NCBI GenBank assembly: GCA_918797485.1
Contig: CAKKNE010000005.1
Location: 3,658,001-3,722,000 of the forward strand
Length of the DNA: 64,000 nt
Direction of reading: 5' to 3'
From: Pelagomonas calceolata
Lineage: Eukaryota > Sar > Pelagophyceae > Pelagomonadales > Pelagomonadaceae
The position numbers were made by a program, and so were the translations under genes. Below, in pieces: positions 18,348-62,933 of this stretch. Positions within the stretch are counted from its first letter, which is position 1; each line of letters begins with the position of its first letter. Under the pieces are notes generated by a model. That model was not told the origin of the DNA and made no database searches. It saw only the letters and a program-made list of their open reading frames with translations.

Positions 18348-18371
18348 GCTAGTGTCTTACGGACCGCTAGC
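18348..18371 (+). promoter_or_regulatory. Palindromic promoter element, copy 1
   Basis: GCTAGTGTCTTAC, spacer, CGCTAGC. The inverted arms extend to TTGCTAG and CTAGCAA. It lies 201 nt upstream of the pyruvate kinase ATG and 191 nt upstream of the divergent TBC/EF-hand ATG. Confidence 0.65.
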
Positions 18372-18548
18372 AAGATTATTTTTTGCGTCCTGTCCCCTGC
18401 AATCGGCACGCAAACAGCGCGAGTAAAGAGACCCAGCACGCAGCGCTTGTGGTTTGTGCTCTCCGATCCAGATCGCAGCGCTGCACGCCGACGACGCGCG
18501 ACTGCAAGCCGCCTACCACTGCGTTGCAGCGCCCAGCAGCGCGTCACG

Positions 18549-20384
18549 ATGATGCGCGGCGCAAGACCCCTCGCACGCGCCGCGCGGCGCTTATCGACGA
18601 GCTGCGAGGGCAAAGCGTATGCAGGTGCCATGACGAAAGTAGTATGCACGCTAGGACCAGCCACCGAAACGCAGGAACGCGTGCAGGAGCTCTGCGACGC
18701 GGGCATGGCCTGCGCTAGATTAAATTTCAGTCACGTCACGGACTATTCCGAGCCCGCCGCGAAGATGGAGTTAGTGAGAGCCGCAAGAGGCGAGCACGCG
18801 AAGCTCGAGGGCACCATACATGATGCCGGATCTAGACATGCGAATCTCCGAGCGGTTTTGTTGGATACGAAGGGCCCGGAAGTACGGACGGGCACGTTGC
18901 CGGGCAACGCCGACTCCTTTATCATCGAGGACGGCATGGAGGTCATTTGCACGTTCGACGACGTTTCTTCGGATCCCGAAGTGAAGGCAGGAGACAGTAC
19001 GTGCCGGCTGCACGTGGACTACGAGTCCTTGCCTTCTACCGTTGCAGTAGGCTCGAAAATACTGTTGGATGACGGCTTGATCTCGCTCCAAGTCACATCT
19101 ATTGGTTCAGACAGCGTCACCGCCATCGCCGAGAACAGTGGACCGATCAAAGCCAGGAAGGGCGTGAATCTACCCGGGAGTATCTTGGACCTACCCGCAT
19201 TAACCCCAAAAGACAAGGAGGACATCCAGTGGGCCGTGGAGACGGGCGCCGATTTCGTCGCTCTATCTTTTGTGCGAAGCGCGAGGAACGTGCGGAGCTG
19301 CCGAGCTTTTATGGAAAGATGCTGCCCGGACCAGAAGACGCGCATGCCTCAAATAATATCAAAAATTGAGAACCAGGAAGGGGTGGATAATTTCGACGAG
19401 ATCCTCGAAGCAAGCGACGGCGTCATGGTCGCGCGCGGCGATCTGGGCGTGGAGATCGACTTTGAGAAGGTATTTGCGGCTCAAAGATACATGGTCGACG
19501 CGTGCAATAGGGTCGGGAAGCCCGTCATCGTCGCGACGCAGATGCTCGACAGCATGATGAGGCAACCTAGACCTACCAGAGCGGAGGTCACGGACGTCGC
19601 GGCCGCCGTGTTGGACGGTGCGGACGCCGTCATGCTGTCGGGCGAGACGGCCGCGGGCAAGTATCCCATCGAGAGTTTACAGGCGATGAAGTCGATCATA
19701 AGGGAGGCGGACGCGATCATCGACGGGAAGAGTAGGGAGGGCGAGACCTCTGGTAAAAGTTATGCTCGTAGCGCTCAAAAGTCGGCGAACGTCGTGCCTC
19801 TCCAAGATGTCGAATTGGACGCCGTGGCGCGCGCGGCGTGTCGGGCCGCCGACGCGCTCGACGCGAAGCTCATTACGTGCGTGACGCGCTCGGGGCAGCT
19901 CGCCAAGGCCGTGGCGCGGCACCGGCCGTCTATCCCCATCGTCGCGTTCTGCTACACGGCGGAGGTCGGCCGGTCGTTGGCTTTACATAGGGCGGTGACG
20001 CCGATCCTGCTCGACGCGGTCCGTGGCTCGGAGCAGAAAATGGACTTGAACGTGACGCGGTCGCGGCGATGGCGTCTTCATGAGACCGCATCGCCTCGAC
20101 GCCGTCGACGTGGCCGTCAGAGAGTCTACGCGTCTCGTGAATGTACAGAGGCAGTTTCGCGACGCCGTCGTTCCGCGCAGGGCGCCGAGAACCCCTACGA
20201 GAAGGGCACGTCCATGGGTCTCCTGCGGGCGGAATCCATTCGGACGTGCCGCGAGCTCGGGTACGTCACGGACGGCGACCGCGTCGTCTCCGTCGACCGC
20301 GCGCTGGGCAAGGCCCACGACGCCTTCGCCGTGGCGCAAACGCTCAAGATCTACACGGTCAGCGCCGAGGGCGGCGACATCTAG
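18549..20384 (+). CDS. PK: Pyruvate kinase, organelle-type leader
   Basis: Converts phosphoenolpyruvate and ADP to pyruvate and ATP at the end of glycolysis. Exons 18549-20051 and 20181-20384 give 567 aa. Family motifs: ARLNFSH, LDTKGPEVRTG, KARKGVNLPGS, ISKIENQEG with the catalytic Lys, VMVARGDLGVEI, ATQMLDSM and MLSGETAAGKYP; the C-terminal allosteric domain follows. The Met at 18549 is chosen because MMRGARPLARAARRLST is an Arg-rich mitochondrial-type presequence; the frame is open upstream to 18342 but crosses the promoter element. The in-frame 129-nt segment 20052-20180 breaks the C-domain and belongs to an introner-like family, so it is treated as an intron although it has no stop codon. 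Confidence 0.93.
   Translation: MMRGARPLARAARRLSTSCEGKAYAGAMTKVVCTLGPATETQERVQELCDAGMACARLNFSHVTDYSEPAAKMELVRAARGEHAKLEGTIHDAGSRHANLRAVLLDTKGPEVRTGTLPGNADSFIIEDGMEVICTFDDVSSDPEVKAGDSTCRLHVDYESLPSTVAVGSKILLDDGLISLQVTSIGSDSVTAIAENSGPIKARKGVNLPGSILDLPALTPKDKEDIQWAVETGADFVALSFVRSARNVRSCRAFMERCCPDQKTRMPQIISKIENQEGVDNFDEILEASDGVMVARGDLGVEIDFEKVFAAQRYMVDACNRVGKPVIVATQMLDSMMRQPRPTRAEVTDVAAAVLDGADAVMLSGETAAGKYPIESLQAMKSIIREADAIIDGKSREGETSGKSYARSAQKSANVVPLQDVELDAVARAACRAADALDAKLITCVTRSGQLAKAVARHRPSIPIVAFCYTAEVGRSLALHRAVTPILLDAVRGSEQKMDLNVTRSRRWRLHETASPRRRRRGRQRVYASRECTEAVSRRRRSAQGAENPYEKGTSMGLLRAESIRTCRELGYVTDGDRVVSVDRALGKAHDAFAVAQTLKIYTVSAEGGDI
20052..20180 (+). mobile_element. Introner-like intron, GTCAGAGAGTC family
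   Basis: GT-AG intron in pyruvate kinase. Its core, starting GGCGTCTTCATGAGACCG and running to GTCAGAGAGTC, is almost identical over about 55 nt to an intron of the C2-domain gene (59835-59922) and partly to introns at 27019 and 40487. It has no clear terminal inverted repeat or target duplication. Spliced length is a multiple of three. Confidence 0.55.
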
Positions 20385-20648
20385 TAGCGCGCGGCGTCTC
20401 TCTCTTTTCATCGAGAGTGGGGAATGAGGACATCAATCTCTTGGAACACATCGCTGCGTTCTTGTCGAGCCGCGGGGAGTGATGTCTCTTGTGGCGCTGA
20501 GATGCTACGATTCTGCAATTCCGACCCCACGTCGTTCGGACGTCGCGCGCGCTCGTCGTTATTTATTGGGTGTGATGATTGTTCCGCGCAGGCTTGCAAG
20601 CGCACCGCGTTTTTTTGTACTATTGTTCGTAGTGCACATAATCCCCCC

Positions 20649-21464
20649 CTAATTATCTTCTCGCCAGTAGCTCAGCACCGTCCAGCAGGCGCCGTTCGGG
20701 AGACGCGCGATGCGCTCGTTGAGACTATTTGTTTTGGCACGCCCGCGAACGAGCAGGGACCGGAAGCGCAGGAATTCGCGGTGAGGGGCTCGGGCGTACC
20801 GCTTGTAGGAGCCGTGCTCGCGGACGCCGGCCAAGATTTCTTGGCATTTGATGAAGTCCTCGTCGTCGCCGACGTCGCTGTAAATGTAACCATGATCTTC
20901 ATTCAGAACCTCTTCGACCGACAACTCGCCCTCGCACCGATCCGGTGACGCACCGGCCCGGAGCAACGCAACGAAAATCTCTCTAAAACTTGACATTTCC
21001 GCTTGAGATACAGCATTTAGAAGTATTCCGAGGGGGGTGCAGTGACTTGGGTATCCGTGACTGCCTGTTCTCGCATTCACGCTGGCTCCAGCCTGTAACA
21101 GTAGTGAAACCATCTCTGCCGAATGTGGTCCTAGTGGATAGTAGCATGCAAAGTGCAGCGGGGCATAGTCATCCGGGCCAGTTAAATTGACGTCGGCACC
21201 GCGGGAAATCAGGAATCGAGCAAGCTCGACGTGATCGGGGTCGATATCTCCATATAAGGACATGGAACGTTGGAGAGGTGTGTGTCCTTCAGCACAGACG
21301 TCATTGACGGCACCCGGTCCCGCGTCGTCGAGCCACGCCTTTAGCGCGGCATCGCCAAGATCGTACGGGCGATCCAATTCGTCGACGACGTCTACTGGTA
21401 CAACCATCGTGAAAGTGGCAATGCGGTCGCGAGATAACGTGTCGTCGAGGCGCGCGCGTGACAA
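20649..21464 (-). CDS. Ankyrin-repeat protein
   Basis: Single exon, 271 aa (or 252 aa from the Met at 21407, MVVPVDVVDELD). Three to four ankyrin repeats can be read at residues ~55-175: GHTPLQRSM...ARFLISRGADVNLTG, YAPLHFACYY...SLLLQAGASVNA, and CTPLGILLNA...ALLRAGASPD. Ankyrin repeats are protein-binding scaffolds; the partner is unknown. No catalytic domain is attached. It is convergent with pyruvate kinase, with a 264-nt gap, and divergent from the 21836 gene across a palindromic element. Confidence 0.75.
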   Translation of the reverse strand: MSRARLDDTLSRDRIATFTMVVPVDVVDELDRPYDLGDAALKAWLDDAGPGAVNDVCAEGHTPLQRSMSLYGDIDPDHVELARFLISRGADVNLTGPDDYAPLHFACYYPLGPHSAEMVSLLLQAGASVNARTGSHGYPSHCTPLGILLNAVSQAEMSSFREIFVALLRAGASPDRCEGELSVEEVLNEDHGYIYSDVGDDEDFIKCQEILAGVREHGSYKRYARAPHREFLRFRSLLVRGRAKTNSLNERIARLPNGACWTVLSYWREDN

Positions 21465-21630
21465 AGAGCCTCGAGTGAGTGTCGAGTCCGATTTGACGAC
21501 CTGTAGGCCACCACAGGTGGCCTCAACTCGTGACAGTGGTCGTCAGGCCGCCAAAAATATCAGGCTCGTCTCCGCTATCGCAGTTGCGCACGAGTCGACG
21601 CGACGACGCCGCGCCCACCTGGGCTTTCTA

Positions 21631-21654
21631 GCTAGTGTCTTACAGGCCGCTAGC
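21631..21654 (+). promoter_or_regulatory. Palindromic promoter element, copy 2
   Basis: GCTAGTGTCTTAC, spacer, CGCTAGC. It lies 205 nt upstream of the 21836 ATG and 166 nt from the divergent ankyrin start. Confidence 0.65.
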
Positions 21655-21835
21655 CCCTGGTCGCGCGAGGCCTTTACGAGAGCAACAGCCATTCGCACGC
21701 ATTCTTAACCGCTCGTGGCATCCCTGTCCGGTGAATTGCGCAACTAGCCAGGTCCCTGCAGCGCATCATTCGACCCACAGCTGCACTGCTCTTCACAAAA
21801 GCAAAAACCTTCAAAGCCCTCAGGCAATCGCATAA

Positions 21836-22438
21836 ATGGTTTACGCACGCGCAAGACCAGTGGGAATGATCGTCCTGGCTGTCGCGGTGGCGCTGCAGCC
21901 AGTGCGACGCCCTCACATGCGCACACGCGTCATCCGCGGCGCTCTGCCGATGCGGCCCTCCCCGGATTTGGAGCCAATCGAGATCGTGAACGCGTGCTTC
22001 GGCGGCCTCCGAACGCCGGACGATCCCCTGCCCGACGCCGGCTACGAACGGCTGTTCTACTTTTGCACGTACACGTGTCGGAAGGCGATCACGGCGCGGA
22101 TGGGCGCGGACTCGCTCGCGAACTTCACGAAGCATACAGAACTTTCGCCGGCCGTGCAGCCATTTACGCGCGCGGCTCGCATACGCATCGTCGACGAGCC
22201 GACGATCATTGCGGGCACGCCGACGCGCGGTCCGATGGCTACCGTAGGTGTGGACGTATTTATTGCGCCGAGTATCCGCCACGCGAGTGGCTACGAGAAG
22301 GAGTCGGACGCTCCTGAGGCGCTGCGATTTGCCATCCGGCTCCAGCAGGAGCGGCGACCTCCAAAAAATTGGCTCATCACGGAGATTTTAGATACGCGCT
22401 ACGCGTTCGCGGGCGACACGGGCAACGACCTGCAATAG
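21836..22438 (+). CDS. Small protein with N-terminal leader, NTF2-like fold possible
   Basis: Single exon, 200 aa. The N-terminus has a hydrophobic stretch (GMIVLAVAVALQ) followed by Arg-rich residues, suggesting a signal or bipartite plastid leader. The body (residues ~45-185) reads like small NTF2-like/DUF4864 proteins (IVNACFGGLRTPDDPLPDAGY...FTKH...), but that match is from memory and weak. The function is not recognised. Its stop lies 79 nt from the convergent guanidino kinase stop. Confidence 0.6.
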   Translation: MVYARARPVGMIVLAVAVALQPVRRPHMRTRVIRGALPMRPSPDLEPIEIVNACFGGLRTPDDPLPDAGYERLFYFCTYTCRKAITARMGADSLANFTKHTELSPAVQPFTRAARIRIVDEPTIIAGTPTRGPMATVGVDVFIAPSIRHASGYEKESDAPEALRFAIRLQQERRPPKNWLITEILDTRYAFAGDTGNDLQ

Positions 22439-22517
22439 TAAGTTTAGATTTGTGTTACGCCGCGACGACGGGTATATGTATGGTCTTTGGAATGGATCGT
22501 CGGCGACGGGTCGATTG

Positions 22518-23914
22518 TTAGCGCCACCGGCGGGGAGCCTTCTTCTCCTCGACCATCAAGTCCGAGATGCCCGAGTAGAGCTTGGCGATGATGTCGCGCT
22601 CCTTGATGAAGAGGCGCTTCGAGGGGGAGATGTCCACGGTGCCGTCGGCGCCGATGGGCGTGTGCTCGCCGCCCGTGCCGCGCACCGAGAGGCCGAGCGG
22701 TTTGCATACTGCCTTGGCTTTGGTCTCCGTGCCGTCGGCCGTGAGGTTCGGGATCTTGACGTGCACTGACGCGCGCATACCTGTGCCCAGGTTGCTGGGG
22801 CAGGACGTGACGTAGCCGTACTTCGACGACGTCGCGAAGGTGATGCCATCGATCGACTCGATGGTGTCGAGCATCGTCTTGAGCCGGTCGAACACCTCGT
22901 TGAGTTTCGTGCCGCGCTTCATGCACATGATTCTCAATTGATCCTCTTCCCCAAACCACACGATGCACTGCTTGTCATCAGACTGCCAGCACCCCCTCCC
23001 GTAGGGCCAGTCGTCGGCGATGCCCGCGGACGCGAGGTACGTGTCCGCCGCCATGTCCTTGAACATGACGTGCTTCTTAACCTGCGTAGATCGAAGACGA
23101 CGTCGCGCCGATGGCGTCGGAAGGGACTCGGACGCCTCACGAGCTCCGCGTACTTCTCCGGCGTAATTAAGTTGGGGTTCTTCTCGCCGTCCCCAAAATC
23201 TGGGGAGAGTGAATAGACCGTGCCGCCGTAGGCCGGGTCCTTCTTCAATTTGTCGAAGGCCTTGAGCATGGCCTTCTCGAAGGCGATGCGCTCCGATTTA
23301 TCCATGGCGCCGGGCAGGTTGAACTGCGTCAGGTTTCGGCCGACGCGCACGCGCATCGACAGTTCTGAGAGACCGAGCTTGGTCACATCCAGAACTCCTT
23401 TGTCTCCGACAGCCGACGCGTCCCAGTCCGTGACATGAGTGGCATCAGCAGAAGCCTTGTGGTACTCCTGGCAGACGGCGTCGAAAAATGGGGCAAACTC
23501 ATCATAATCACTCGGCGCCATGGCGTAGCACCCCAATCCGGAATCGGGGTTCTCCCAGCCCGTCTTCAGGCATTTCAGGAGGCGCGTCTGCTGTGCCGGG
23601 TCGAGCGTCGCGAAGTACTCAAAATCAAATTTTTGTATGGCTATATTGTCGGGCATCGTCGCCTTGACCTTCGCGATCTTCGCGAGCTCCTCGCCATGTG
23701 CGAGTACAGAGAGCAGTTTCTTCGAGGCCTCGTCGGCTTGGATTGAGGGCGCTGCGGCGTGGCCTTCGTCAGCTCTAGGCGCCATGCAGGCAATGGCAGC
23801 CACTCCGACACCGCCTGCGATCAGGAAGCCGCTGCCATCCCCCGCGGCAGCGGTCGAGAGCTGCCTTGCATGCCGGGCAGCCCGGCGCGACGCCGACGCG
23901 AAGCGGGAGAACAT
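22518..23914 (-). CDS. ATP:guanidino phosphotransferase (arginine/creatine kinase), mitochondrial
   Basis: Reversibly moves phosphate between ATP and a guanidino compound, buffering cellular ATP. Exons 23914-23141 and 23081-22518, 445 aa. The start MFSRFASASRRAARHARQLS is a mitochondrial presequence, followed by a short hydrophobic segment. Family features: RVRVGRNLTQF, the nucleotide-binding signature CPSNLGTG with its conserved Cys, and VRGTGGEHT. The 59-nt intron 23082-23140 (GT-AG) contains the recurrent CGATGGCGT motif; removing it restores AELVKKHVMFKDM. Arginine versus creatine specificity cannot be decided from the sequence alone. It is divergent from the RAD54-like gene. Confidence 0.88.
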
Positions 23915-24344
23915 TTTGTGCACAGATCCCGGGTGCTCTCGATGGCGAGCTTGGCTTCGCGGAGCATGGGCATGCTCCAAACGAGCCCCGCACCGAAAGG
24001 ACGTGTACTAGACGTCCAAATGAGACTTTAGATGCCGCCGACAATGATCTGAAATGCAGTCCTGAAACAGCTCCGTAGACAACTGATTGACCGGTGATTT
24101 TGAAGGTCGAGGCAGACCGACTCCGGGACCGAGACGACGCGGCGCCGCGCGCAACGAACGAGTAGCCAAACACAGCGCAACGCAGCACAGCGCATTCGTT
24201 TGATACGTGCGCGCTGCTCCACGACAGATTGTGCGTTCGCGCCGTCTGCAGCGCTCCCTGAGGCGCTAAGTGCATATCAGCCGCGCTGCCGCTAAGCGGC
24301 GCGAACACGTACGCCGCGCACACGTGGACGCGCAGTACTAAACC
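23915..24344. other. Divergent intergenic region
   Basis: This 430-nt spacer holds the promoters of the guanidino kinase and the RAD54-like gene. No good copy of the palindromic element is present. An imperfect inverted repeat with CGCTAAG arms sits at about 24263-24300 and may be unrelated. Confidence 0.4.
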
Positions 24345-27300
24345 ATGGCCAAATTCCAGCTCCCCACGTCCACAAAAGGCGGCAGCAAGGGCTTCGCGCC
24401 GCCGCGCAAGACCGCGACGAAGACCGCGCCGCGCCCGAAAGCTAGACCTTTGGCGCCCGCGCGCTTCGAGTCGAAGCCGCCGCCGCCGCCTCCCACAGAC
24501 CCCGTGGGCGCCTGGGCCTGCCTCTACGCGAAGAAGGGCCCCAAGAAGAAGATCACGTGGCTCGACGGGGAAGTCGTGCGCGAGCCGTACCCCGGCAACA
24601 TGCACCGCGTCAAGCTCATCGACGCGGACACGAAGGCCCAGGTGACGTCCACCACGAAGCCGGCGTCCTTGGCGCCCTTCGAGGTCGACAAGGACGACGA
24701 GACGTGCTTCTCCGGTTATAGATTACAAATCACGGCGCGGTTGAGAGGAGGCGGGCCCGCGGCCGCGCCGGCGGCGCCGCCGGCGCCGGCCCGCCCGGCG
24801 CCGCGCGCGCCCGTCCGCCCGGCGCCGCCGCGGCCGAAGCCGCGGCCGGCCCCGGCGCCGGCGCCGGCTCCGCCGGCGCCGAGCGGCCGCGCCGCCGAGG
24901 TCGGCGCCTGGGCTTGCCTCTACGCGAAGAAGGGCCCGAAGAAGCGCATCACGTGGATCGACGGCGAGGTCGTCCGGGAGACGTACCCCGGCAACCAGCA
25001 CAAGCTCAAGCTTTTTGATGCGGCGACGCGCGTCATGGTCTCGGGCGCGACGGTGCCGGCGGCTTTTCGACATTTCGAGGTCGACGACGACGACGAGACG
25101 GCCTTCGGCGGCTACCGGCTCCAGATCACGGACCGGCTGCGCGGCGGCCTCGCGCCCTGCCCCGCGCCGCCCGTGCGGCGCGGCGTCCCCTGGCCTTCGC
25201 TTGCGAGACGCGTTGACGGTGGCGCGTCGATGGCGTGGAGGCTCGCGTCGACGGCGTTGAGGCGTCGGCCACGCCATCGCCGCGACGCATCGACACAAAA
25301 CCCATCTCCACACAGGCGCCGCCGGCGCGGCCCGCGCCACCCACGCAACAAGCGCCCGCGCGGCGGGGCCCGCCGCCGGGCTGGGGCGCGACGCCGCCGC
25401 CCGTGGCCCCGCGGGCGCGCCGCCCGCGTCCCGCCAGCACGCCATCGCCGCAACCCGCCACGCGTCAACACACAGGTCCCCGCCCCGAAACCCCGGAGCG
25501 GCCCGCCCGCGAACTGGGCCTCAACCACCACAGTCGCGCCGAAGCAAAAAACGAAGAGACCCTCGACGAAGATGCACGACGGGCCCGTGACTGATTTCGT
25601 CGTCCTAGATCAACCGAGAGTTGCACTACGAGGCCCCGTCGCGCGGAAATTGCGACCGCACCAACGGGACGCCGTCAAGTTTTTGTATGGCTGTCTATCG
25701 GGAAGGCAACCTGAGAGAAGAGAAGGTGCTATACTAGGCGACGAGATGGGCCTGGGGAAGACCCTCACCACTCTAGCATTGTTGCGAACTTTGGTGAAAG
25801 CAGCAGGAAGTTGCCAGAACGACGACCACGGTTTGCAGAAGATCCGGAAGGCCTGTGTGGTCTGCCCGGCGTCATTGGTCGCCCAGTGGCCCAACGAGGA
25901 CGCCAAGTTCTTCGGGCGGGTTTCGTCGAACGTCGTCTGGATCCCTTGTCTAGAGAAGGCGGGCGGGAGTGCGGACGGCACGGTAGAGACGGCCAAGGCA
26001 GCTCTCGAAAGGTGGCGCGCGTTGGATGGCCGACGGTCCTGTGCCGTGCTATCCATTTCGTACGAGGCCTTCGCGCGGCACTGCGAAAGTCTCATTGATG
26101 CGGACCCTCAATTGGACCTGCTGATCATGGACGAGGGCCACCGGTTAAGGGGTGGTGCCAAAGCTAAAACAGCTTCCTTACTCCGAGACTGTCGGGCTTC
26201 CAAGAGGTTACTGTTGACGGGCACGCCGGCGATGAACAATTTGGAGGAGTTCCACTCGTTGGTCGACGTTTGTTGTCCTGGCGCTTTAGGTGATGCGGCG
26301 TCCTTCCGGAGGGATGTCATGAGGCCTATTTCTGCTGGGGCGTTGCGCGGCGCGTCTTCTGCACAAAAGAAGGCGAAGGAGGAGGCGACGCAACAACTGA
26401 GAAGTGCCGTATCTGCATTCTACCTGCGGCGGGCGGCGTCGGACATTGCTAGAGCTTCCCTCCCACCGAAGACCGTCCATATAGTGTGCTGCCGCATGGT
26501 CGACGACCAACGGGAAGCTTATGAAGAGGCCTGCGAGCTGCGGGACGGCGGCGCTCTCGCCACGATCCAGAAGCTGCGAGCCTTAGCTACAAGAGGGCCC
26601 GCTCGGAACCCGCTGCACGAGCCTTCAAGTGGCAAGTTACGCGTCGCCTTCGCGTTATTGCAGCACCTCCGCGAGACGGGATCTGAAAGAGTAGTAATCG
26701 CGTCCGGAAGCACGGCGACGTTGGACGTCATCCAAGCCTGCTGCGATGCGCGGCGGTGGGACTGGCTGCGGGTCGACGGAACGACGCCGCCGGCGGAGCG
26801 GCCTAGATTAGTCGAAAGATTTAAGTCGAGGACCTCGAACGCGTTCGTGTTTTTGCTGTCGACGCGGGCGGGCGGCTGCGGCCTGAACCTGGTCGGCGGC
26901 AGTCGCTTGCTCTTGTTGGATCCGGACTGGAACCCGGCGCACGACGAGCAGGCCATGGCGCGCGTCTGGCGCGACGGCCAGGCGCGGCCCGTCCACGTGT
27001 ATAGGCTGCTCTCCGCCGGTGCTGACGCGGCGTGATTTCCGAACGTTTCCGACACCGCATCGACGCCTTCGACGTGGCCGTCAGAGAGCCTACACATCCT
27101 CGACGCTGTCGTTCGACGCAGGCACGATCGACGAAAAGACGCTCGCGCGCCAGCTCCACAAGCACGACGCCAATGATGGTGCCGTATTAGACGACAACAA
27201 CTGCGCCGCGCGCTTCTCGGCCCGCGCCCGCGTGGACATCACATTTCACGCCATCGACGCGACGTCGTACGAACACAACTCACTGGTCAATTCCCACAGG

Positions 27301-27787: not shown

Positions 27788-27811
27788 GCTAGTGTCTTAC
27801 ATGCCCCTAGC
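27788..27811 (+). promoter_or_regulatory. Palindromic promoter element, copy 3
   Basis: GCTAGTGTCTTAC, spacer, CCTAGC. It lies 77 nt upstream of the 27865 ATG, the shortest distance of the set. Confidence 0.6.
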
Positions 27812-29047: not shown

Positions 29048-29072
29048 CTAGTGTGTCTTACGTGTCGCTAGC
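29048..29072 (+). promoter_or_regulatory. Palindromic promoter element, copy 4
   Basis: CTAGTGTGTCTTAC, spacer, CGCTAGC. It lies 132 nt upstream of the 29180 ATG. Confidence 0.6.
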
Positions 29073-31345: not shown

Positions 31346-31359
31346 GTTCTCCAGGGCGA

Positions 31360-32212: not shown

Positions 32213-32235
32213 CTAGCGCAGCATAGACACACTAG
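32213..32235 (-). promoter_or_regulatory. Palindromic promoter element, copy 5 (reversed)
   Basis: On the minus strand it reads CTAGTGTGTCTATG, spacer, CGCTAG. It sits between divergent lipocalin (ATG 188 nt away) and SDR (ATG 189-211 nt away). The rest of the 398-nt spacer shows nothing else recognisable. Confidence 0.6.
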
Positions 32236-35034: not shown

Positions 35035-35058
35035 GCTAGTGGCTTTATGGACGCTAGC
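35035..35058 (+). promoter_or_regulatory. Palindromic promoter element, copy 6
   Basis: GCTAGTGGCTTTATGGA then CGCTAGC, 24 nt, perfect outer arms. It lies between divergent NPL4 (245 nt) and the AlkB-like gene (237-260 nt). The surrounding 500-nt spacer (34791-35294) has a 128-codon open frame that is not credited as a gene. Confidence 0.65.
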
Positions 35059-37877: not shown

Positions 37878-37898
37878 TTAGTGTCCTTAAACGCTAGC
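37878..37898 (+). promoter_or_regulatory. Palindromic promoter element, copy 7 (degenerate)
   Basis: TTAGTGTCCTTAAACGCTAGC: the left arm is imperfect, the right arm exact. It lies 197 nt from the RPN13 ATG and 169-189 nt from the divergent PDI ATG. Confidence 0.5.
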
Positions 37899-39418: not shown

Positions 39419-39439
39419 TTAGCGTAGTAAGCCACTAGT
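39419..39439 (-). promoter_or_regulatory. Palindromic promoter element, copy 8 (degenerate, reversed)
   Basis: On the minus strand CACTAGTGGCTTACTACGCT is readable, matching the left half and spacer well and the right arm poorly. It lies 212-232 nt upstream of the SET-protein ATG. Confidence 0.4.
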
Positions 39440-39650: not shown

Positions 39651-41359
39651 ATGGCTGCGCGATGGCTAGCCCTAACAGCTGCGGCCACGGCCTACCTCCC
39701 GCCGTCGCAGCCCAGGAGAAGCCTACGCTTGCACATGTCCGACGACAGCTGGGCCCAGGAGCTCGCGCAGGCCGGCGGCGGCTTTGAAAGGCAGGAGGCG
39801 TCGCGCTGGCAGAAGAGCGACAGAGGCAAGGCCGACGCCGAGTCACGGGCAAGAAATGATGCCATCCTCAAGTGGCTCGAGGGCAATGATGTGTGGGTCT
39901 CGGAGCTCTCGGGCTGGAACGAGCCGCCCCATTCGTTAGCGTTGGCGACGTCGACGTTCGACGAACTCGAGGGCGAAGATTCTGGGAGAGGGTTGTTGGC
40001 GAGGAGAGCGATAGCCCAGGACGCCATCCTCGCGCGCTTACCTGTCAGGTTATGTATGACGAAAGAAGCGGCGCTGGAAGCGAGGGAGCTCAAGGGCATC
40101 GTTTCGCAAGACACTAACGAGTACGTTGCTATCGCCTTGCTACTCATCGGCGAGGCCCAGAAGCCGAACTCCTTCTGGAGGGAGTATATTGAGGTCCTCC
40201 CGTCCGTCGAAGACGTCTCGGCGACGTTCACCTGGTCCGAAGACGAATTACAATACTTAGAAGGCTCGCCGGCGAGGCAGGCCACCGCGTCGATGCAGGA
40301 CAAGCTGCGGAGGGAGCATGCGTCTATTTTGGAGCAATATCCTCAGCTAGATAGATCAGTATTCACGCTGGAACGGTGGACCTGGGCCTTTTCTAATTTA
40401 TTTAGTAGAGCTATCAGGCTGAAGGCGGGCCGGGTCGACGAGTTTTTGGCCTTGGTGCCGTACATCGATTTTATAAATCACTCGCCGTTTGGATGCGGCG
40501 TCTTCACGTCGACGCGGTCTTCATGAAGACGTCGACGCGATGCCGCGTCGCCGCGACGCCGTCTTCATGATCACACGAGAGTCTACGCGTCGACGCGGTC
40601 GCCGCGACGCCGTCGACGCGGCCGTCAGAGAGTCTACGCGTCGACGCGGTCGTCATGATCACACGAGAGTCTCAACACAGGTTCAGTTCTTCGTACGTCG
40701 ACGCGCGCGCCATCCCCAAGGCCTTCCCCTGGGAGGCCGAGGAGGACGAGGTTGTTTTGTTCGCCGATAGAGCTTATAAACAGTTCGACCAGATTTTTAT
40801 ATCGTACGGCCCGCGGCCGAATTCGGACTTGCTGCTGCTGTACGGCTTTGCGCTCGATAGGAACCCGTTCAATAGCGTCGATTTGGTCGTGGGCGCGAAC
40901 GCGGACCAGGACCCCCTATTCGACCAGAAGCGGGCCTTCGCGGCGAGTGCGGGTAGAGATGTCGCGAGAGCCGCGTTTCCCTTGTATGCCGATCGCTACC
41001 CCGATGAATTGGTGCAGTTCCTGCGCATGGCCTGCGCCACGATGGAGCACCTCGGGAATTTGCCGCTAAATGCGCCGGAGACGTACGTGGACATTGTTTC
41101 CTTGGACAATGAATTGGCCGTGTTGGAGACGATCCGGGAAGCCGCCACTAGCGCTCTCAATGCGTATCCGCCACCCAATGACGACATCCCGGCGGCGTTC
41201 CTGTCGCGGAACCAGCGCATGGCGCGGCGCCTCGTGCAGACCGAACAGCGCATCCTGCAGAAGACCGTCGCGGCGACGGAGCGGAAGGCGCGGGAGCTGC
41301 AGAGTGCGCCGCCTTCCTTCGAGCGGCGGACGCCGGACCTGCTGTCGAACTTTAAGTAG
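39651..41359 (+). CDS. SET-domain protein methyltransferase (Rubisco LSMT-like), plastid
   Basis: Lysine methyltransferase of the LSMT/SETD3/SETD6 family. Exons 39651-40486 and 40681-41359, 504 aa. The Met at 39651 is chosen because MAARWLALTAAATAYLPPSQ is a signal peptide with an AYLPP cleavage context typical of secondary-plastid targeting; the frame is open 53 codons upstream. SET motifs: GRGLLARRAI, LVPYIDFINHSP joined to FSSSYVDAR across the intron, and VLFADRAYKQFDQIFISYGP. The Rubisco-binding helical domain follows. A plastid target such as Rubisco or aldolase is inference. The 194-nt intron is repeat-rich. Confidence 0.87.
40487..40680 (+). mobile_element. Introner-like intron with internal repeats, GTCAGAGAGTC family
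   Basis: GT-AG intron, 194 nt, with a CAACACAG acceptor. A 24-bp unit starting GAGAGTCTACGCGTCGACGC occurs exactly twice (40577-40600 and 40628-40651). A second unit with TCATGATCACACGAGAGTCT occurs twice (from 40564 and 40653). The GTCAGAGAGTCTACGCGT string is shared with the pyruvate kinase intron. The element looks internally expanded. Confidence 0.6.
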
Positions 41360-41474: not shown

Positions 41475-41497
41475 GCTAGCGGCATGTAAGACACTAG
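41475..41497 (-). promoter_or_regulatory. Palindromic promoter element, copy 9 (reversed)
   Basis: On the minus strand it reads CTAGTGTCTTACATGCCGCT then AGC. It lies 151-173 nt upstream of the 41648 ATG. Confidence 0.65.
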
Positions 41498-41647
41498 AAC
41501 CAGCTCAATGGCCCGAATTGTGCTTTGTGCGTGAGCGCTGCGATTCGAAATCCAGCATTTCCTGCATTCTGGAGACGTTCTAACACACAGCTACGCGTTC
41601 AACAAGAAGAGCGGTGACTGAAAGACGTATAACAGCAGTCTGACACG

Positions 41648-46127: not shown

Positions 46128-46829
46128 CTGGCAGCGCAGCGGTGATCTATCGTATTTATGTTGAATTATTAACGCCGTGTGGGGCCTGCTCTATGCATGC
46201 ATTGCTGCGCTTTTTGCATGCCATGCAGCCAAAAAAATTGACCTATTGAGTTTGCGCGGCTCGGCTAAGCCTCCTCCCGAGGCCTGCCGGCGGCTCTGAG
46301 GGGTCCGTGGGTGCTTCATGTTGGCTAGCAAGCGTGGTTTTTGCTAGCGCAAAACACACACACTAGGAAGCGGTTGTTTGAGCAGCCACTTTTGCGACGC
46401 CGCTAGCTCCTGGTAAGTGACTCACCGTGCACCCTCCTGCCCTCCTTAATGCTCAGCGCTGACGTGCAGCCCGTGCTGCGCCGAAAACGGCGTTCCGAGA
46501 GACAGCGGCACGGTAAAAATCGACCGGTGGGCAAAAAGCCGCTGCGCCGGCTTGCGCCGCGCACACGGCGGCGGCCGCCCGTTTAGGGCCGCCGCGACGC
46601 CGCGCTCGGCTGCCACAACTGGCCAGCGCCGCGGCGCGCCCGCAATGTTGCGCTTTGGCCCGCGAACGCCGGCGGCGGCCGCCCAGAGAAAAACAGCCCC
46701 CGGCCGGACCGCCGCGGCGCGCCGACGCGGCCGCGCCGCTCCCAGAGAGAAACCAACCCCTCAGCACGCCGCCGCCGCGCCCCGCCACACCCGCCCGTCT
46801 CACGCAGGCCGCCGGCGCCGCGCGCGACG
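46128..46829. other. Divergent intergenic region, 5'-nucleotidase / CDK
   Basis: 702 nt. It contains a palindromic element at 46343 and, nearer the kinase, a strongly GC-rich part (46540-46800) with no supported ORF. Confidence 0.5.
46343..46366 (-). promoter_or_regulatory. Palindromic promoter element, copy 10 (reversed)
   Basis: On the minus strand it reads CTAGTGTGTGTGTT, spacer, GCGCTAGC. It lies 216 nt upstream of the 5'-nucleotidase fusion ATG and 464 nt from the CDK ATG. Confidence 0.6.
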
Positions 46830-47833: not shown

Positions 47834-48296
47834 ATTCAGGGCGCCGCGCACCGCGCTTGGCTTGCCGCTTTCGTATCGCACCGAGTCCCCCCCCACACCA
47901 CTCCCCACTTAACAAGAGTTCCGTACAAATTCTTTTTGTCTGGCGCGGCGACGAGGCGTCTGCTGTGGCGGCGTTAGGACAGTCTAATAGGACTAGTGTC
48001 ACCGCGCGGGCGGCGTCTTTCAGAACAGCACAATTACGTCTAGCGTTTAGGGAAACAGCCTAGCCTTGCCTTCCTTAACCAAAACGGGTTTTTGCGGATC
48101 CCCGCCCGCCCCAGGGGACTCGTCGCGGAGGTCGCACGGGCCAGTGAGGCTTGCTTTCTAGTGTGTCTAATAGGACGCTAGCTCTGCATGGCCACTCGTT
48201 TTTTTGGCCACAGCGATGCGCGCCGTGGTTGAATTGTCATAAGCAATCAATACCATAAATAACTCATCGTGCTGTCCGCTGCAGTGCAAGCTTGAG
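47834..48296. other. Intergenic, CDK end to SulP start
   Basis: 463 nt. It holds the CDK 3' region and the SulP promoter with a palindromic element at 48158. Nothing else is recognised. Confidence 0.45.
48158..48182 (+). promoter_or_regulatory. Palindromic promoter element, copy 11
   Basis: CTAGTGTGTCTAATAGGA then CGCTAGC. It lies 115-139 nt upstream of the SulP ATG. Confidence 0.6.
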
Positions 48297-51401: not shown

Positions 51402-53306
51402 TTAGCGCCGGCGCTTGCGGGGAGGCTTCGCGTTGTCGTGGACCCACGCGATGCCCTCGGCGAGGCTCATCGGGCGATCCGCCTCGGCGTTCCACGGGAT
51501 TTCCTGCTCCGCTTCCCAGGAGTTTTGGGAGTAGTAGAACGGGGCTGCGTCGTCGGCGAGCATGCGCGTCGGCACGTCTCGCTCCATGAGCGCCTCCGCC
51601 GCGGCGCTCACCATCTCCTGGAGTTCTCGGCGCTGCGACTCGAGGGGCGTGACCATCGAGTCCAGGAGTTCGCCGCGGCTCTCGTGGTCGTCGCGCTCCT
51701 TCGTAACCTTGGCCACGCGGCTCTTGTGGTCGTCTCGCTCCTTCTTGACCTCCGCGACGCGCTTGGTGGTTTCCTTGTCGTGGAGCTCGCGGAGCTTCGA
51801 GCGGGGCGGCGGCGCTTCGTCGTCGTCGCTGTCTTCCGCCGTGAGATCCAGCACGGTGCCCTCATGGCGATCGAGGCGGCGTTTCAGCTTTGCGTTCGCT
51901 TCCTCGAGCAGCATGACGACTACGTCGTAATGACGGCGACGCTTTGCTGCGTCCAGCGGCGTCGTACCGTCCTTATCTGCCCATTCGACGTCGGCGCCCC
52001 GCGCCAATAAGAGCCGCGCCGCGTCGACGTGGCCCTTCTCGCAGGCGACGTACAGCGGCGTAAAGCCGCCCTCCCTTGCCCGGTCGACCTCCGCATCTTT
52101 TTCCAGCAACAGCCGCGCCGCGTCGACATTGCCGTTCTCGCAGGCGACGAACAGCGGCGTCCAGCCGTTCCTCCTTGCCCGATTAACGTCCGCGCCGTTG
52201 TCCAGCAACAGCCGCACCGCGTCGACGTGGCCATCATAGCAGGCGACGTACAGCGGCGTCGAGCCGTACTTGTTCGCCCGATTAATATCCGCGCCGCGCT
52301 CCAGCAGCAGCCGCGCCGCGCCGACGTGGCCCTGATGGCAGGCGATGTACAGCGGCGTCCAATCGTGCTTCTTTTCAGCCCGATCGATTTCCGCGCCGTT
52401 GTCCAGCAACAGCCTCGCCGCGTCGACGTTGCCGTTCTTGCAGGCAAAGAACAGCGGCGTCGCATCGTCCTCGTCCGCCCGATCGACCTCCGCACCTTTT
52501 TTCAGCAGCATCCGCGCTGCGTCGAGGCGGCCGCCCTCGCACGCTACGAATAAGGGCGTCGCGCCGTCCTTCTTTGCGTCTACCTCTGCGCCACCGTCCA
52601 GGAGTTGAGTCATCGCCTCGACGTCGCCGGTCCTTGCCGCAGCGTGAAGTGGGAACTTCGGATCCAAGTGTTCCTCGAGCAGCGCGACGGACGAGTGGCT
52701 GAAGGTTTGTGCGATGGACAGCGGCGTCTGACCGTCCTTTGTCGTCCGAAAAACGTCCGCGCCCTTGTCCAGCAACAGCCGCGCCGCGTCGACGTGGCCC
52801 CCACCGCAGGCGACAAACAGCGGCGTCTCACCGTTCACATCCGCCCGGTCGACCTCCGCGCCTTTATCTAGCAACAGTTGCGCCGCGTCGACGTGGCCTA
52901 TCTGGCAGGCGACGTACAGCGGCGTCTGGCCGTACTTGTTCGCCCGATCGATCTCCGCGCCTTTATCTAACAACAGCCGCACCACGTCGACGTGGCCCTC
53001 CCAGCAGGCGGTGATCAACGGCGTCGCACCGTACTTGTTCGCCCGATTAACGTCCGCGCCTTCGTCCAGCAGCAGCCGCGCCGCGTCGACGTGGCCGTTC
53101 CGACAGGCGATGTACAGCGGCGTCGCACCGTCCTCACCCGCCCGATTGACCTCCGCACCTTCTGCCAGCAGCGACCGCGCCGCGTCGACGTGTCCTTTCT
53201 CGCAGGCGAGGAATAGCGTCTTATTGGCAGCCGGCTTTTTTGCCGCCGGTTTCTTCTTTTTGGGCGGTGCCGCAGCGCCTGATGACTTCTTCGTTTTGGG
53301 CGGCAT
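51402..53306 (-). CDS. Ankyrin-repeat protein with coiled-coil C-terminus
   Basis: Single exon, 634 aa from MPPKTKKSS at 53306; the frame is open 94 codons further but reaches into the neighbouring promoter. About 14 ankyrin repeats of 33 residues fill residues ~28-480 (consensus TPLYVACxxGHVDAARLLLD, GADVNRA). They are highly alike, suggesting recent tandem growth; repeat 6 is degenerate (QTPLSIAQTFSHSSVALLEE). A charged coiled coil with duplicated TKERDDHESR units follows, then a PPRKRRR tail that may be a nuclear signal. Scaffold role inferred; partner unknown. Its stop is 29 nt from the SulP stop. Confidence 0.85.
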   Translation of the reverse strand: MPPKTKKSSGAAAPPKKKKPAAKKPAANKTLFLACEKGHVDAARSLLAEGAEVNRAGEDGATPLYIACRNGHVDAARLLLDEGADVNRANKYGATPLITACWEGHVDVVRLLLDKGAEIDRANKYGQTPLYVACQIGHVDAAQLLLDKGAEVDRADVNGETPLFVACGGGHVDAARLLLDKGADVFRTTKDGQTPLSIAQTFSHSSVALLEEHLDPKFPLHAAARTGDVEAMTQLLDGGAEVDAKKDGATPLFVACEGGRLDAARMLLKKGAEVDRADEDDATPLFFACKNGNVDAARLLLDNGAEIDRAEKKHDWTPLYIACHQGHVGAARLLLERGADINRANKYGSTPLYVACYDGHVDAVRLLLDNGADVNRARRNGWTPLFVACENGNVDAARLLLEKDAEVDRAREGGFTPLYVACEKGHVDAARLLLARGADVEWADKDGTTPLDAAKRRRHYDVVVMLLEEANAKLKRRLDRHEGTVLDLTAEDSDDDEAPPPRSKLRELHDKETTKRVAEVKKERDDHKSRVAKVTKERDDHESRGELLDSMVTPLESQRRELQEMVSAAAEALMERDVPTRMLADDAAPFYYSQNSWEAEQEIPWNAEADRPMSLAEGIAWVHDNAKPPRKRRR

Positions 53307-55931: not shown

Positions 55932-55952
55932 CTTGTAGACAACACATCATCT

Positions 55953-56725: not shown

Positions 56726-56749
56726 GCTAGTGTCTTACAGGTCGCTAGC
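56726..56749 (+). promoter_or_regulatory. Palindromic promoter element, copy 12
   Basis: GCTAGTGTCTTACAGGT then CGCTAGC, the best consensus copy. It lies 164-187 nt upstream of the F-box gene ATG and 132-155 nt from the divergent small membrane protein. Confidence 0.7.
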
Positions 56750-56805
56750 TCACCGCGTCGAGCAAAAAAAGGCCCTGTGCAGCGCAATCTCTCGTACTCA
56801 CGGCA

Positions 56806-56811
56806 TATATA
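56806..56811 (+). promoter_or_regulatory. Possible TATA box
   Basis: CATATATACAC lies about 100 nt upstream of the 56913 ATG and 57 nt after the palindromic element. A single AT-rich match in GC-rich DNA; no transcript start is known. Confidence 0.3.
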
Positions 56812-56912
56812 CACACGGATCTGTCATTTCGCAGCGCGTTTTAGCCCTGTGCAAGCGCTCCACGCATCGCTCACCACCTTTACTGTACTTTAGCACTTGA
56901 CCCATAAGCCAT

Positions 56913-58052: not shown

Positions 58053-58093
58053 GTTGATCACTAAATTACTCACAAAAACAAATCACTGGAGGA

Positions 58094-61000
58094 CTATCGT
58101 GAGCTCGGAACAGGTTTCGCCCACGTCTTCGACCAGTTCGTCGACCAGTTCGGCGGCGGCGCCACGGGTCGCCTGCGCGCCGGCGCCGACCGCGGACGGG
58201 CAACAGTGTGCCGCGGCGCTGCCTTGGTTGGAGCAACGCGCCGACGCCGAGAGGTCGCCGTCGCCGAAGCAGGCCGTGCGCGCGCGGACGAGGGCGCAGA
58301 CCGCACGACAGAGGCTGAGGATGGACGGGCGACAGAGGCAGAAGACGGCCGCGGCCGCACGGCGCCCGCGGAGGCCGGCCGCGCTCCTAACAGTGACCGC
58401 TTCTGCGAGGAATTGGCGGCGGCCGCGGCGCGCGCGAGGTTAATACTGCGCTTGTCCGGCCGCGGCGGTCGGCCCGCCTTGAAGGCTAGTTTGTGGAGGC
58501 GGCCGCGCGTCGGCGGCAGGTGCAGGTTCTGCTTGATGAACGTAGGTTTCCCGCGTTGCGCGTCGGCCTCTAACAACCCCCGGATGCGCCGGAGCTGGGG
58601 CTCCAAATGCGTCTCGTGAACGTTGTACTCGCCGAGGCCGTGCAGTTCGGAAGCCGGCTTCCCGACCGTCGCCGACTGCGGTCGCCGCTTCAACGGCGTG
58701 ACGTCGAGCCGCTTTGGCGTCGAGCGCTTCGCCGGCGCCGAGCCCGGCCTTTTGAGGACGATGGAGTCCTCGATGGACCGGGGGCCCGAATCCACAGAAG
58801 TGACGTCGTCGTTATGGAACAACAAACGCACAGCATCTGCTTCCTTGTTGCCGGTGAGTGTGGGTCCTTTGTAGTCCGTAAACCCGAGATTCCGCCGCGG
58901 GTCCTGAGCGGGATCGTTATGCCGCTCAAGTGCTTGCCGGATGCGGTACCTCGCTTCGAGGGCCCTCCTATCCTGCCGCTTCGTATCCGGACCGTTCTCT
59001 GAAGAAAAGACCGCGGCGACGCCGTGGCGCGGGTAACGGCGCAATTTGACCCCATACAAAGGGTCGGCCGCGTCCGCTTCGGCGTTGTCCTCGGCTTCAA
59101 GCCTTTCGTCCTCTGCTGTCCAGCCCGTGACATCGCGACGTCTTGCTCTAGATTCCCGCGCCTCGCGCCTCCGCAATAATTCGCGCGCCCGTGCCGCGTC
59201 CGCGCCCGTCAGAGCTAAAAGCGAGCCGCCGTCCGCCGTCGCGACGATGGCCGCCCGGTCGAGCTCCCTCCGTATCGTATCGATGATCGCGTCCGGGACC
59301 TCGCCGCGCGCCGCCTCAAGCACGTCGCGCGCGGAAGCGCCGAGGCAGCTCGCGGCGAAGGGGTCTGCACCTTTCTGCATTAATAGACCGACGCATTTCA
59401 ACGCCCGCGTCATCTGCAAGCGGTTGCGGCCGCGAGCAGCATCGACTGCGAAGCGCACGGCGCGCGACACCGCCGACTCGCCCGCGCCGTTCGCGTCCTC
59501 CGCCGTGGCCTCGCCCGTCTCGAGCAGCTCCGCAACTCGCTCCAAGTCGCCGGCGCCCGCCGCGCGGCAGAGCTCCGCGGCGGCCCGGTCCTCGTCGTTG
59601 TCGACGGGCAGCTGCTTCCCTCCCGACGCTCTCCCGAGGATCGCCCGCCGCACGGCCCAGGCCTCCTCCTGGGTCGCGCAGCAGACGCGGCAGTCGGAGA
59701 CCTTCTGGAGCAGACGCGGCCCCTCTCGCGCAGCAGACGCGAGGCGCACGACGTGGTCTCTTCCTTCAAAACGGCAGACGCGCACGTCGCACAGGTGCGC
59801 GCGTCTTAATGAAAACCGCTTCTCGTCCAGGTACCTGTGTCGAACGATGGCGTCACGACTCTCTGACGCCCACGTCGACGGCGTCGAGGCGGTGCGGTCT
59901 CATGAAGACGCCGTCGGCGCACGGGATCGCCGACTCGAGCGGCGCGGGCACGCCGTGCAGCAGGAAGGGGAAGCCCGTCGCGACCTCCGTGGCGAGGCGC
60001 ACGCGCCGCAATTGCCACCGGGCGCACTGCTCGCCTGCGCGCGGGAGACGCTCTCGACGCCATCATCGCGCCGACGGCGTCGCGGCAGCTGCGAGGAAAA
60101 AGGACGCGGAACGGCACCGGGCGGCGTCACGAAGACCTCGCGGTTCCAGAATCGGTGCACGTCGAACGGATTCACGTACGTGTAGTCCTCGACCAAATCC
60201 AGCGAGGCCCCGTCCTCGTCCTCCTCGGTCGTGATGGCCGGCGCCTCATCTTTCTCAATCTCGGCGAGCTCGGGCACGGCGCGCGCGGCCGCGCGCCGCC
60301 GCGCGCGCGCGCCCGCGGCCGCGGCCATGCCCGCCGCCGCGACGCCAAAAAATACTTTTTTCTGCGTGCTGCCCGAGATGCCGGCGCTGATGCCTGATGG
60401 TGATGGTTTGGCAGGCTTCGGCGTCGTCGGAGGGACGACCTTTGCCACTGTTGCCGGCGAGTGGCACCACTGCACGATCAGCTCGACTTCGCCCCCTAGC
60501 TCGACGGTGATCGTCTCACTGACGTCCGTCGCCTCTCCGACCAGCTTGTGCCAGCCCCGATGGATCTTCCGATCTAGTAATGACGTCAGGTTTATAAGCG
60601 CGTGGCCCATGAGCTCGCCTCTCGACACATCCTCAAGTCTAGCTTTCAGTTGAGGGGAAGCGACGTTCGCGTCGAGCGAGACGGCCCACTGCTGGTGCCT
60701 GTGTGGAACTCAGAATTCGGGCGCCTCACAGCTGCGTCTGCGCGATGGCGTGGCGATTCCACGCCATCGACGCAACTTCGTCCCCGCGGCCGCGTCGGCT
60801 CGATGGCGCGCGGGCTCACGAAGGTTGATTTCCACACAGGCCAGTACCAGACGGGGTGCGGCGTCTTCTTCCGCTCCTGCGACCGCCATCTGTGCAAGAT
60901 CTTGTCCGACGACGACACCTCAAACACTACCAAAGGAGACCCTTCGGTCAAACCAGCCGCCTGGACCAGGGCGATTTTCAGTTGATTCGCGACCTCGGCC

Positions 61001-62799
61001 TTCATGCGGACCGGCTCGGGCGTGAAGGGCGCGTAATCGAGACCGGGGTCGAAGCGCCAACTTAAACGGACGTGGAGGCGGCCCGTTAACGTTGAGCCGT
61101 CATACAGATCGATACGCTCGTCTCGAGCGCGTCGCGCCTTCAGTCGGGCGATATCATAGGTACCTTTACCGACACCCGGGACACTACACTCCAACAAACA
61201 ATCCTCCTTCACTTCAAGTGAAAGCACCTGGCGGAACATGGCGAACCCCGCTCTTAAACCTTCATCTCGCGTCCTCACGACGTCGGCGCGAGGCACGGTA
61301 AACTCGCAGCGAAACATCGGCTGGAAATCGGCAATATGATTCGCGATGCGGACCTTGTGCGCGCCGATCATGAGCGTGTTCGGTTCATGTGAACGGAAAT
61401 GCAAGTCACCGGCAAAGGGCTCATACGTATAAGCCGGGTTGTGGCGCTTTTGAATCGCGACCAATAAAGCGCCGTGCTCCAACGTGCGCCATTCCCTACT
61501 AGGCTCGTCCAACGCCACGGCGCAGCTCCCCAGCAGCTCATCGTCAGACGTCCAGTGCCAGTCATACACGTCAAGCTCTAGATGGCCTTCGCCGTGGTAC
61601 TCGAAGGCGAAGATCTCGTTGAAGACGGGGTGCGTCGTCTTGAGGACCGTCTGCGTGCGATGCGCTATCGATAGGGGGTCGTTCAAGCGCAACGAAACGT
61701 AGGCGTCGCAGGAGTCCCATGTTCCTGGGTGTAAGTCTCGCGCTCGACAGACGGCCACTCTCACCTCATTCGAATGTTGAGTATCCTGTGACTCGTCGAA
61801 GGCGAGGTCCTGATGATGTGGATCCAAACCGGCGACGTACGACAGCTTCGCCGCGATCCGGACCTTTCCTACGGCCTGCTCACCCTTTAGTAATGACAAC
61901 CACATGGCCGCGGCGCCCCCGTCGTCTTCATGCGGACTTGGTAACTCATTCACCGGGAAGCGCGCGACGCCGAGACCATGGTTCAGTTCGACGTGTAAAA
62001 ACTGGTGGCCGCCCTTGCGATAAGGCAGGTCGAAGGCCTCCATCACCAGCACATCCGACGAGCGGTCGATATTCCTGGTCACTCTTTTCTCGTCGCCGAG
62101 CGACGCCGTCAGCTTGATATGAGGCGTGTGCACGATGTGCTCGAGTTTCTGTAACCGCGACTCCTTCTGTAACTCAACGCATCGGACCAACGCCACCCGC
62201 AAACAGTTCGGCTCGCGATGTAAACACGGGGCCACCGCTTCCTCGTCGACGAACCACCGCACACTATCCGCGTCGGGCGCCGCGTGAGTCTCATCATGAG
62301 GAGTCATGGCGATCGTCGCGCAGACCTCGCCCGCCTTCACAGTATCAAGTTTTATCGGCACCGTGATCTCGTTGTCGCCTTCCTCAAGACCGTTTAGAGC
62401 CACCTGCGCCTTGCCCAACAGCCGCGCCTTGCGCAGCGTTCTGAAGGAAAACACCTCGATGCGCAGCTTCGGCAGCTCTTTTATGGATATAGGCGCCTCG
62501 AAGACGAAGCGCTCCCGTGTCCAGACCGGGTTCGACGTATGCTTCGCGACGCGCGTCCTCCTTGCGTCGGACAGGCGGCGGCCGTCGCGCAGCTGCACGA
62601 TCGACAACACGCAAAACGGGTTCGGCGTTCCATGTTCCTCGCTCAGGTCGCGCGCGCGCGTGATGTCCACGACGACGCGGGCCGTCGTCGCCTTGCGCGG
62701 CGGTTCGGGCTGCTTGGCTTCTTCTTCCTCGCTGTCGCTGCTGTCGTGCCGGTGCTGTGGCCTCTTTTTTGGGCTGGCGTCGGAATCGTCATCAATCAT
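58094..62799 (-). CDS. Multi-C2-domain protein with long disordered tail
   Basis: Exons 62799-60848, 60698-60118, 60034-59923 and 59834-58094 give 1461 aa. Five C2-like domains occupy residues ~30-900: TTARVVVDITRARDLSEEHG, LRVALVRCVELQKES, NEVRVAVCRARDLHPG, a region around HKVRIANHIADFQPMF, and NQLKIALVQAAGLTEG. The third has the best calcium-site pattern (DSCDAYVSL, VYDWHWTSDDELLG). An Arg-rich segment, an ankyrin-like stretch (LCRAAGAGDLERVAELLETG) and a basic Pro/Ala/Ser tail with RPASA/RPSSA repeats follow. Membrane or flagellar binding is inferred. Splices restore HPVWHQQWAV, PPGEQCARW and SAIPYLDEK. Confidence 0.78.
59835..59922 (-). mobile_element. Introner-like intron, GTCAGAGAGTC family
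   Basis: GT-AG intron, 88 nt, in the C2 gene. Gene-strand core GGCGTCTTCATGAGACCG onward matches the pyruvate kinase intron at nearly every position for about 55 nt. It ends ATCGTTCGACACAG. The two host genes are unrelated, so the sharing reflects spread of the intron. Confidence 0.65.
60699..60847 (-). mobile_element. Introner, orientation 1, in C2 gene
   Basis: GT-AG intron, 149 nt. On the gene strand it begins GTACTGGCC then TGTGTGGAAATCAACC and ends TGAGTTCCACACAG. The flanks GGTACTGGCC and GGCACCAGCA match at 6 of 10. The interior has three CGCCATCG/CGATGGCG motifs that can pair into a hairpin. Confidence 0.75.
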
Positions 62800-62822
62800 T
62801 GTTGGGCTGCCCTTTTACGTGC

Positions 62823-62830
62823 TATATATA
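62823..62830 (-). promoter_or_regulatory. TATATATA box near C2-gene start
   Basis: TATATATA occurs 24 nt upstream of the C2-gene ATG, a strikingly AT-rich patch. A TATA function would place transcription at or after this ATG, so it may serve a very short leader or be unrelated. Confidence 0.3.
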
Positions 62831-62910
62831 CGCGATTGCTATGTCGGCAGCATGTCCACACTTTCACTGTGGCTGCCCCGCATCCGGCGCTGTAAAAGCG
62901 CTGTTGATTT

Positions 62911-62933
62911 GCTAGTGTGTGTCGACACGCTAG
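62911..62933 (+). promoter_or_regulatory. Palindromic promoter element, copy 13
   Basis: GCTAGTGTGTGTCGACACGC then TAG; the arms pair over CTAGTGT and ACACGCTAG. It lies 112 nt from the C2-gene ATG and 171-193 nt from the divergent 63104 ATG. Confidence 0.55.

Follow-up and report, generated by a model that had tools for sequence, protein, structure and literature searches.

A flexible two-module sequence element in the promoter regions of Pelagomonas calceolata, a candidate binding site for a general regulatory factor

Introduction

What reads a bipartite sequence of about 24 bp that recurs in front of functionally unrelated genes within a short stretch of pelagophyte DNA? The genome of Pelagomonas calceolata comprises 32.4 Mb in 6 chromosomes, with a GC content of 63.6% (PMC9481584). 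The assembly analyzed here holds 32,445,274 bases in 8 contigs, from which the window (C5:3658001-3722000), that is, the whole 64,000-nucleotide stretch under analysis, was taken. An earlier note on the window had listed 13 copies of a 24-bp palindromic element and had proposed either a general promoter element bound by a dimer or a boundary between divergent units. Here, we describe the anatomy, frequency, and placement of this element, and weigh what kind of site it might be.

Results

Sites in the window and anatomy of the element

All 13 listed sites are present in the window, with both arms exact in ten and a mismatch in one arm in three. Canonical copies with exact arms lie at 18348..18371 (+), between divergent genes with pyruvate kinase on the right, at 21631..21654 (+), at 41475..41498 (-) in a tandem context, and at 56726..56749 (+), again between divergent genes. 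Exact arms also flank a spacer of 12 at 29048..29071 (+) and, in a tandem context, at 48158..48181 (+), and a spacer of 11 at 32213..32235 (-), between divergent genes with a short-chain dehydrogenase on the right, and at 46344..46366 (-; TGTGTGTTTTG), where a 5'-nucleotidase-like gene on the left diverges from a protein kinase gene on the right. Two exact-arm copies between divergent genes carry a variant core, namely GCTTTA at 35035..35058 (+), with a ubiquitin/NPL4-like gene on the left, and TGTGTCGACA at 62911..62934 (+), with a gene for a C2-domain protein on the left. The mismatched copies are those at 27788..27811 (+), in which the left half is exact and the right arm reads CCCTAG, at 37878..37897 (+), with TTAGTG and a spacer of 8 between divergent genes, and at 39419..39438 (-), with CGCTAA and a spacer of 8.

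The general pattern is CTAGTG-N6-13-CGCTAG, and its commonest version is TTGCTAGTGTCTTAC-NNNN-CGCTAGC. Because the spacer runs from 6 to 13, arm-to-arm length varies from 18 to 25 bp, and the 24 bp proposed previously hold as the modal but not as a fixed length. Among 100 genomic copies listed, the spacer measured 10 in 56, 9 in 16, 11 in 12, and 8 in 7, with lengths of 6, 7, 12, or 13 in the remainder; TTAC stood at its standard place in 69. The consensus, TTGCTAGTGTCTTAC[A/T]GG[C/A]CGCTAGC, was built on loci chosen for TGG, so that its spacer bases are biased; in 19 unselected copies these bases were A-G-G-C.

Two further repeats were observed in the window. A dispersed repeat of 45-80 bp ending in GAGAGTCTACGCGTC, possibly a separate gene-end element, lies within or close to the 3' ends of several genes (window 20054-20134, 27018-27098, 40502-40642, and 59850-59920; also L050:8911-8972). 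At 51889-53250, inside a long minus-strand reading frame, a unit of 99 bp (33 codons) is repeated nine times in tandem fashion, and its period is that of ankyrin-type repeats.

Copy number and information content

The element recurs throughout the genome, at a density of about one per 8 kb. With exact arms and a spacer of 6-13, it was found 4,103 times (2,072 on the plus and 2,031 on the minus strand), compared to 36 times for a reversed-pattern control, confirming that both orientations occur. A strand polarity along contig C1, with plus copies alone among the matches listed beyond 1.32 Mb, was considered and rejected, given a minus copy at 1.78 Mb and strict-form totals of 703 and 676 on the two strands. 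The strict 18-base form with fixed spacer occurs 1,379 times and CTAGTGTCTTAC-N0-8-CGCTAG 2,099 times genome-wide, each against 0 in the control, while the strict 24-mer with up to three mismatches gave 7 matches against 0 in shuffles. In a sample not chosen for the motif, consisting of the window and twenty 9-kb stretches placed evenly at round coordinates (244 kb), CTAGTG-N6-12-CGCTAG was found 37 times and never in the reversed sequence, and a right arm lay within 20 bases of the left half CTAGTGTCTTAC in 19 of 21 cases.

Allowing one mismatch raised the genome-wide count of the fixed-spacer form only to 2,067, and the roughly 688 one-mismatch copies, spread over 18 positions, amount to about 3% per position (2% of all such copies). 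From this one-mismatch spectrum the information content is estimated at about 30 bits, compared to the 13.9 bits needed to specify 4,103 places on both strands of 32 Mb. The specificity of the element is thus about twice what its copy number demands, which is unusual for the site of a simple factor.

Placement relative to genes

Genes were predicted from codon usage, with the long reading frames of the window as the training set. Predicted coding sequence covers 70% of the DNA, and none of 67 copies lies inside it; for the 37 copies sampled regardless of motif, the probability of such absence is about 5e-20. One copy overlaps the end of a predicted gene by 10 bases. The earlier statement that the copies are intergenic is borne out, and an equal frequency in coding sequence, named as a refuting outcome, did not arise. 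By context, 40 of the 67 copies are divergent and 24 tandem; 2 are convergent, and one stands at the edge of a contig. The median distance from element centre to ATG is 212 bp (quartiles 181-269), where individual distances may be off because gene starts come from our own predictor, and 76% of copies fall 110-290 bp from the ATG, compared to 42% under uniform placement in the same intergenic regions. Together with the genome-wide excess over the control, this supports the enrichment upstream of genes that a genome scan had been expected to reveal, at distances that reach somewhat beyond the 80-260 nt first proposed.

The host genes are functionally mixed, as had been noted, and include those for pyruvate kinase, a short-chain dehydrogenase, an NPL4/ubiquitin-like protein, a nucleotidase-like protein, a kinase, and a C2 protein. 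About half of promoters are without the element. Genes with and without it did not differ in codon bias and gene length, taken as a proxy for expression, and simple, shallow k-mer counting in element-free promoters found no second motif. There is usually one copy per intergenic region. Paired elements up to 37 bp apart were observed in the same promoter at L045:8224 and 8259 and at G000 C1:575888 and 575925, one pair being inverted and the other head to tail.

A long, asymmetric site that occurs in both orientations, usually once per intergenic region and mostly in divergent gaps, might also be a chromatin boundary or insulator, comparable to those of CTCF, that parts neighbouring units and does not drive transcription. 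Such a boundary would have no cause to avoid convergent borders, yet these are nearly empty: counting copies with at most one arm mismatch, the element occupies 25 of 45 divergent gaps and 18 of the 43 tandem gaps that exceed 150 bp, but only 3 of 39 convergent gaps (divergent versus convergent, P=2e-6; P=0.03 when limited to gaps over 150 bp). Borders are not, then, marked irrespective of gene orientation, as an insulator would mark them. In addition, the distance to the ATG is constrained, and 24 of 66 classified copies (about 36%) stand in tandem promoters. The divergent setting emphasized previously thus describes many copies but not the tandem ones, no boundary between divergent units has to be invoked, and we regard an insulator function as quite unlikely.

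Orientation, arm asymmetry, and the core

Relative to genes, orientation across all copies is nearly balanced (55 sense, 45 antisense); within tandem promoters, the sense direction is weakly favoured (17 copies against 7; P=0.06). Flexible spacing and roughly random orientation make a transcript signal unlikely, and a likeness of GTAAG on the reverse strand to a 5' splice site was dropped since orientation is random.

The arms are inverted repeats but for one base, the left reading CTAGTG and the right CGCTAG (complement CTAGCG). They could in principle pair, with one G.U wobble and a loop of 6 to 13 as is usual for hairpin loops, into a structural element, either an RNA hairpin in 5' leaders (with the U.G wobble) or a cruciform extruded from the DNA. 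The mismatched T on the left and G on the right are, however, nearly invariant. Symmetrised, fully paired arms were found genome-wide 0 times as CTAGCG..CGCTAG and 10 times as CTAGTG..CACTAG, the latter perhaps products of CpG decay, against 1,379 copies of the strict form, so that compensatory or more stable pairs are not tolerated. Moreover, the core TCTTAC is conserved although unpaired between the arms. The arms are not conserved as pairs and do not keep a consistent orientation to the transcript, as those of a structured RNA would, and a hairpin of either kind appears highly improbable.

The near absence of symmetrised arms argues against arms kept for base pairing and equally against a fully symmetric dimer. 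One arm base showed no change at all, while four spacer bases vary freely; the T/G asymmetry is strict and the core asymmetric, which do not fit two interchangeable half-sites of a perfectly symmetric homodimer operator. The spacer also varies by up to 7 bp, which is large for a rigid dimer. Of the proposal that a dimer binds the element, the related inverted arms remain in favour, but any such dimer would have to be asymmetric or heterotypic.

Flanks, relatives, and origin of the copies

The flanks of different copies share no homology of any length beyond the element, a few local cases excepted, and the element is thus a site and not a piece of a larger repeat. In the 25 bp or so next to the element, AA/TT steps occur about twice as often as at greater distance, a pattern like that of open promoters. 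CpG decay was not used as a sign of nucleosome phasing, as a dip at 140-180 bp that looked significant came mostly from motif-selected loci and was weak or absent in the unselected subset; a CpG step near 180 bp, seen in both subsets, was left aside too, since it cannot be separated from the onset of coding sequence. A separate dispersed repeat of 41-92 bp with a CGCCG..CGGCG hairpin was observed directly upstream of promoter elements in the intergenic gap (L035:1954-2045 and L043:3542-3633, 86% identical to each other; also near L035:3854).

Copies that are over-specified and near-identical, with inverted ends, could reflect recent spread of a mobile or selfish short repeat, of the REP or MITE type or an introner-related footprint, into open promoter DNA. 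In support of such a repeat, introners in the related pelagophyte Aureococcus favour nucleosome linkers (PMC9860276). Against it, constraint differs strongly by position, a distance to the ATG is preferred, the flanks are unrelated, and the element itself makes up the entire repeat. The element is present in both orthologous loci available for comparison, on two Tara Oceans contigs filed under bacterial MAGs, L051 (CAJWEZ010000013.1) and L052 (CAJWOS010000634.1), which contain the strict form. Both align with the alga across the element at 89-96% identity, the element being unchanged and small indels lying beside it, a conservation that is weak evidence because both cases were found via the motif itself. 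Pelagophyte DNA is present in public bacterial MAGs from Tara Oceans, and as only about 1.6 kb of the 8 kb of L051 matches the alga, this contig may be chimeric. No viral copies were found in IMG/VR with the two patterns searched. Overall, we consider a mobile repeat very unlikely.

Finally, the element might mark replication origins or another form of DNA handling, its place in promoters being due to their open state. In favour of this, a location in promoters and AT-rich flanks would fit origins as well, and elements seem absent from a low-GC stretch of about 378 kb on C1. Against it, origins would hardly be expected in several thousand copies, or about one every 8 kb, and strand polarity is absent; of the readings considered, this is the least probable. 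In the C1 stretch (C1:2585303-2963179), no plus-strand elements occur among the matches listed, which are mostly of one strand, compared to about 14 expected, and two 10-kb samples of it (L055, L056) have 49% GC and no exact-arm copy. It probably represents the low-GC centromeric region described for P. calceolata. Genes are present there, including those for an S-adenosylmethionine synthetase and a DNMT5-like protein, the latter encoded by an open frame of 2,232 residues that combines C-5 DNA methylase and SNF2 domains in the DNMT5 architecture (L055:1677-8375, G000 C1). DNMT5 accompanies linker methylation in Aureococcus (PMC9998398).

Discussion

The position, frequency, free orientation, and mixed host genes of the element fit the site of a general promoter factor. 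Indeed, it is confined to promoter regions across many unrelated genes, and being a long, exact signal held to about 200 bp upstream of genes, it is most likely the dock of a putative general promoter protein. We therefore share the earlier view of a general promoter element, which position, frequency, and absence from coding DNA back, and judge it probable that the element is bound by an abundant, sequence-specific general regulatory factor, particular to the lineage, which marks promoters and most often bidirectional ones. Beyond the established sequence, copy number, promoter confinement, spacing, near-random orientation, and strict asymmetry, we infer from sequence that a protein binds the element and that the element opens promoters or initiates transcription.

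The reader could be one asymmetric factor, a heterodimer, or a multi-finger protein whose linker is flexible. It would contact the left module GCTAGTGTCTTAC and, over a variable spacer, the inverted and slightly different right module CGCTAGC, and would sit near the middle of a promoter region of about 430 bp, some 200 bp from either start codon. Once bound, it may hold the promoter open and give transcription its starting point, for both genes where these diverge.

The open literature searched contained the motif string in no relevant context and nothing on pelagophyte promoter motifs, in line with the earlier statement that no equivalent had been described, although functional analogues exist. 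By analogy, the proposed factor would work like Abf1 and Reb1 of yeast or like ZNF143/THAP11 of animals. The yeast Abf1, Reb1, and Rap1 sites are, like the element, frequent in promoters of unrelated genes, present in both orientations, and often placed in divergent promoters, and those of Abf1 are likewise bipartite; unlike the element, however, they are shorter, much less specified, and fixed in spacing. The REST/NRSF RE1 and CTCF sites resemble the element in being long and two-part, with multi-finger readers and somewhat variable half spacing, but are mostly distal or outside core promoters and differ in sequence. Bacterial REP elements and DNA uptake sequences also comprise thousands of short, near-identical, over-specified copies, those of REP being intergenic, but they are bacterial and keep no fixed distance upstream of genes, and the conservation of REP copies tracks hairpin pairing, contrary to what is found for the element. 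At ZNF143/THAP11 sites, bidirectional promoters are prominent. The ZNF143/THAP11 site (SBS) is, like the element, a long, asymmetric, hyperconserved promoter sequence of thousands of genes (for THAP11, PMC5695914), and ZNF143 stimulates initiation (PMC11118474). The SBS differs in having another sequence, no inverted arms, and proteins of animals.

The excess of information may stem from two proteins on one site, from a very demanding multi-domain factor, or from spread by copying. Unrelated flanks and position-specific constraint make simple copying less likely. A bolder reading, which we hold to be unlikely, is that a single over-specified, flexible two-module site and a lineage-specific master factor define half of promoters and form the main pelagophyte promoter code in place of TATA/Inr-type signals, the factor possibly being a domesticated transposase and the bipartite promoter site a descendant of its inverted terminal repeats.

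For these algae, a single motif that predicts where about half of all promoters lie, with an error of a few tens of bases, would offer an anchor for gene models, maps of transcription starts, and expression tools, and the element would be a direct biochemical handle for purifying its putative binding protein. The gap between about 30 and 14 bits, in turn, presents a testable puzzle on the evolution of regulatory sites.
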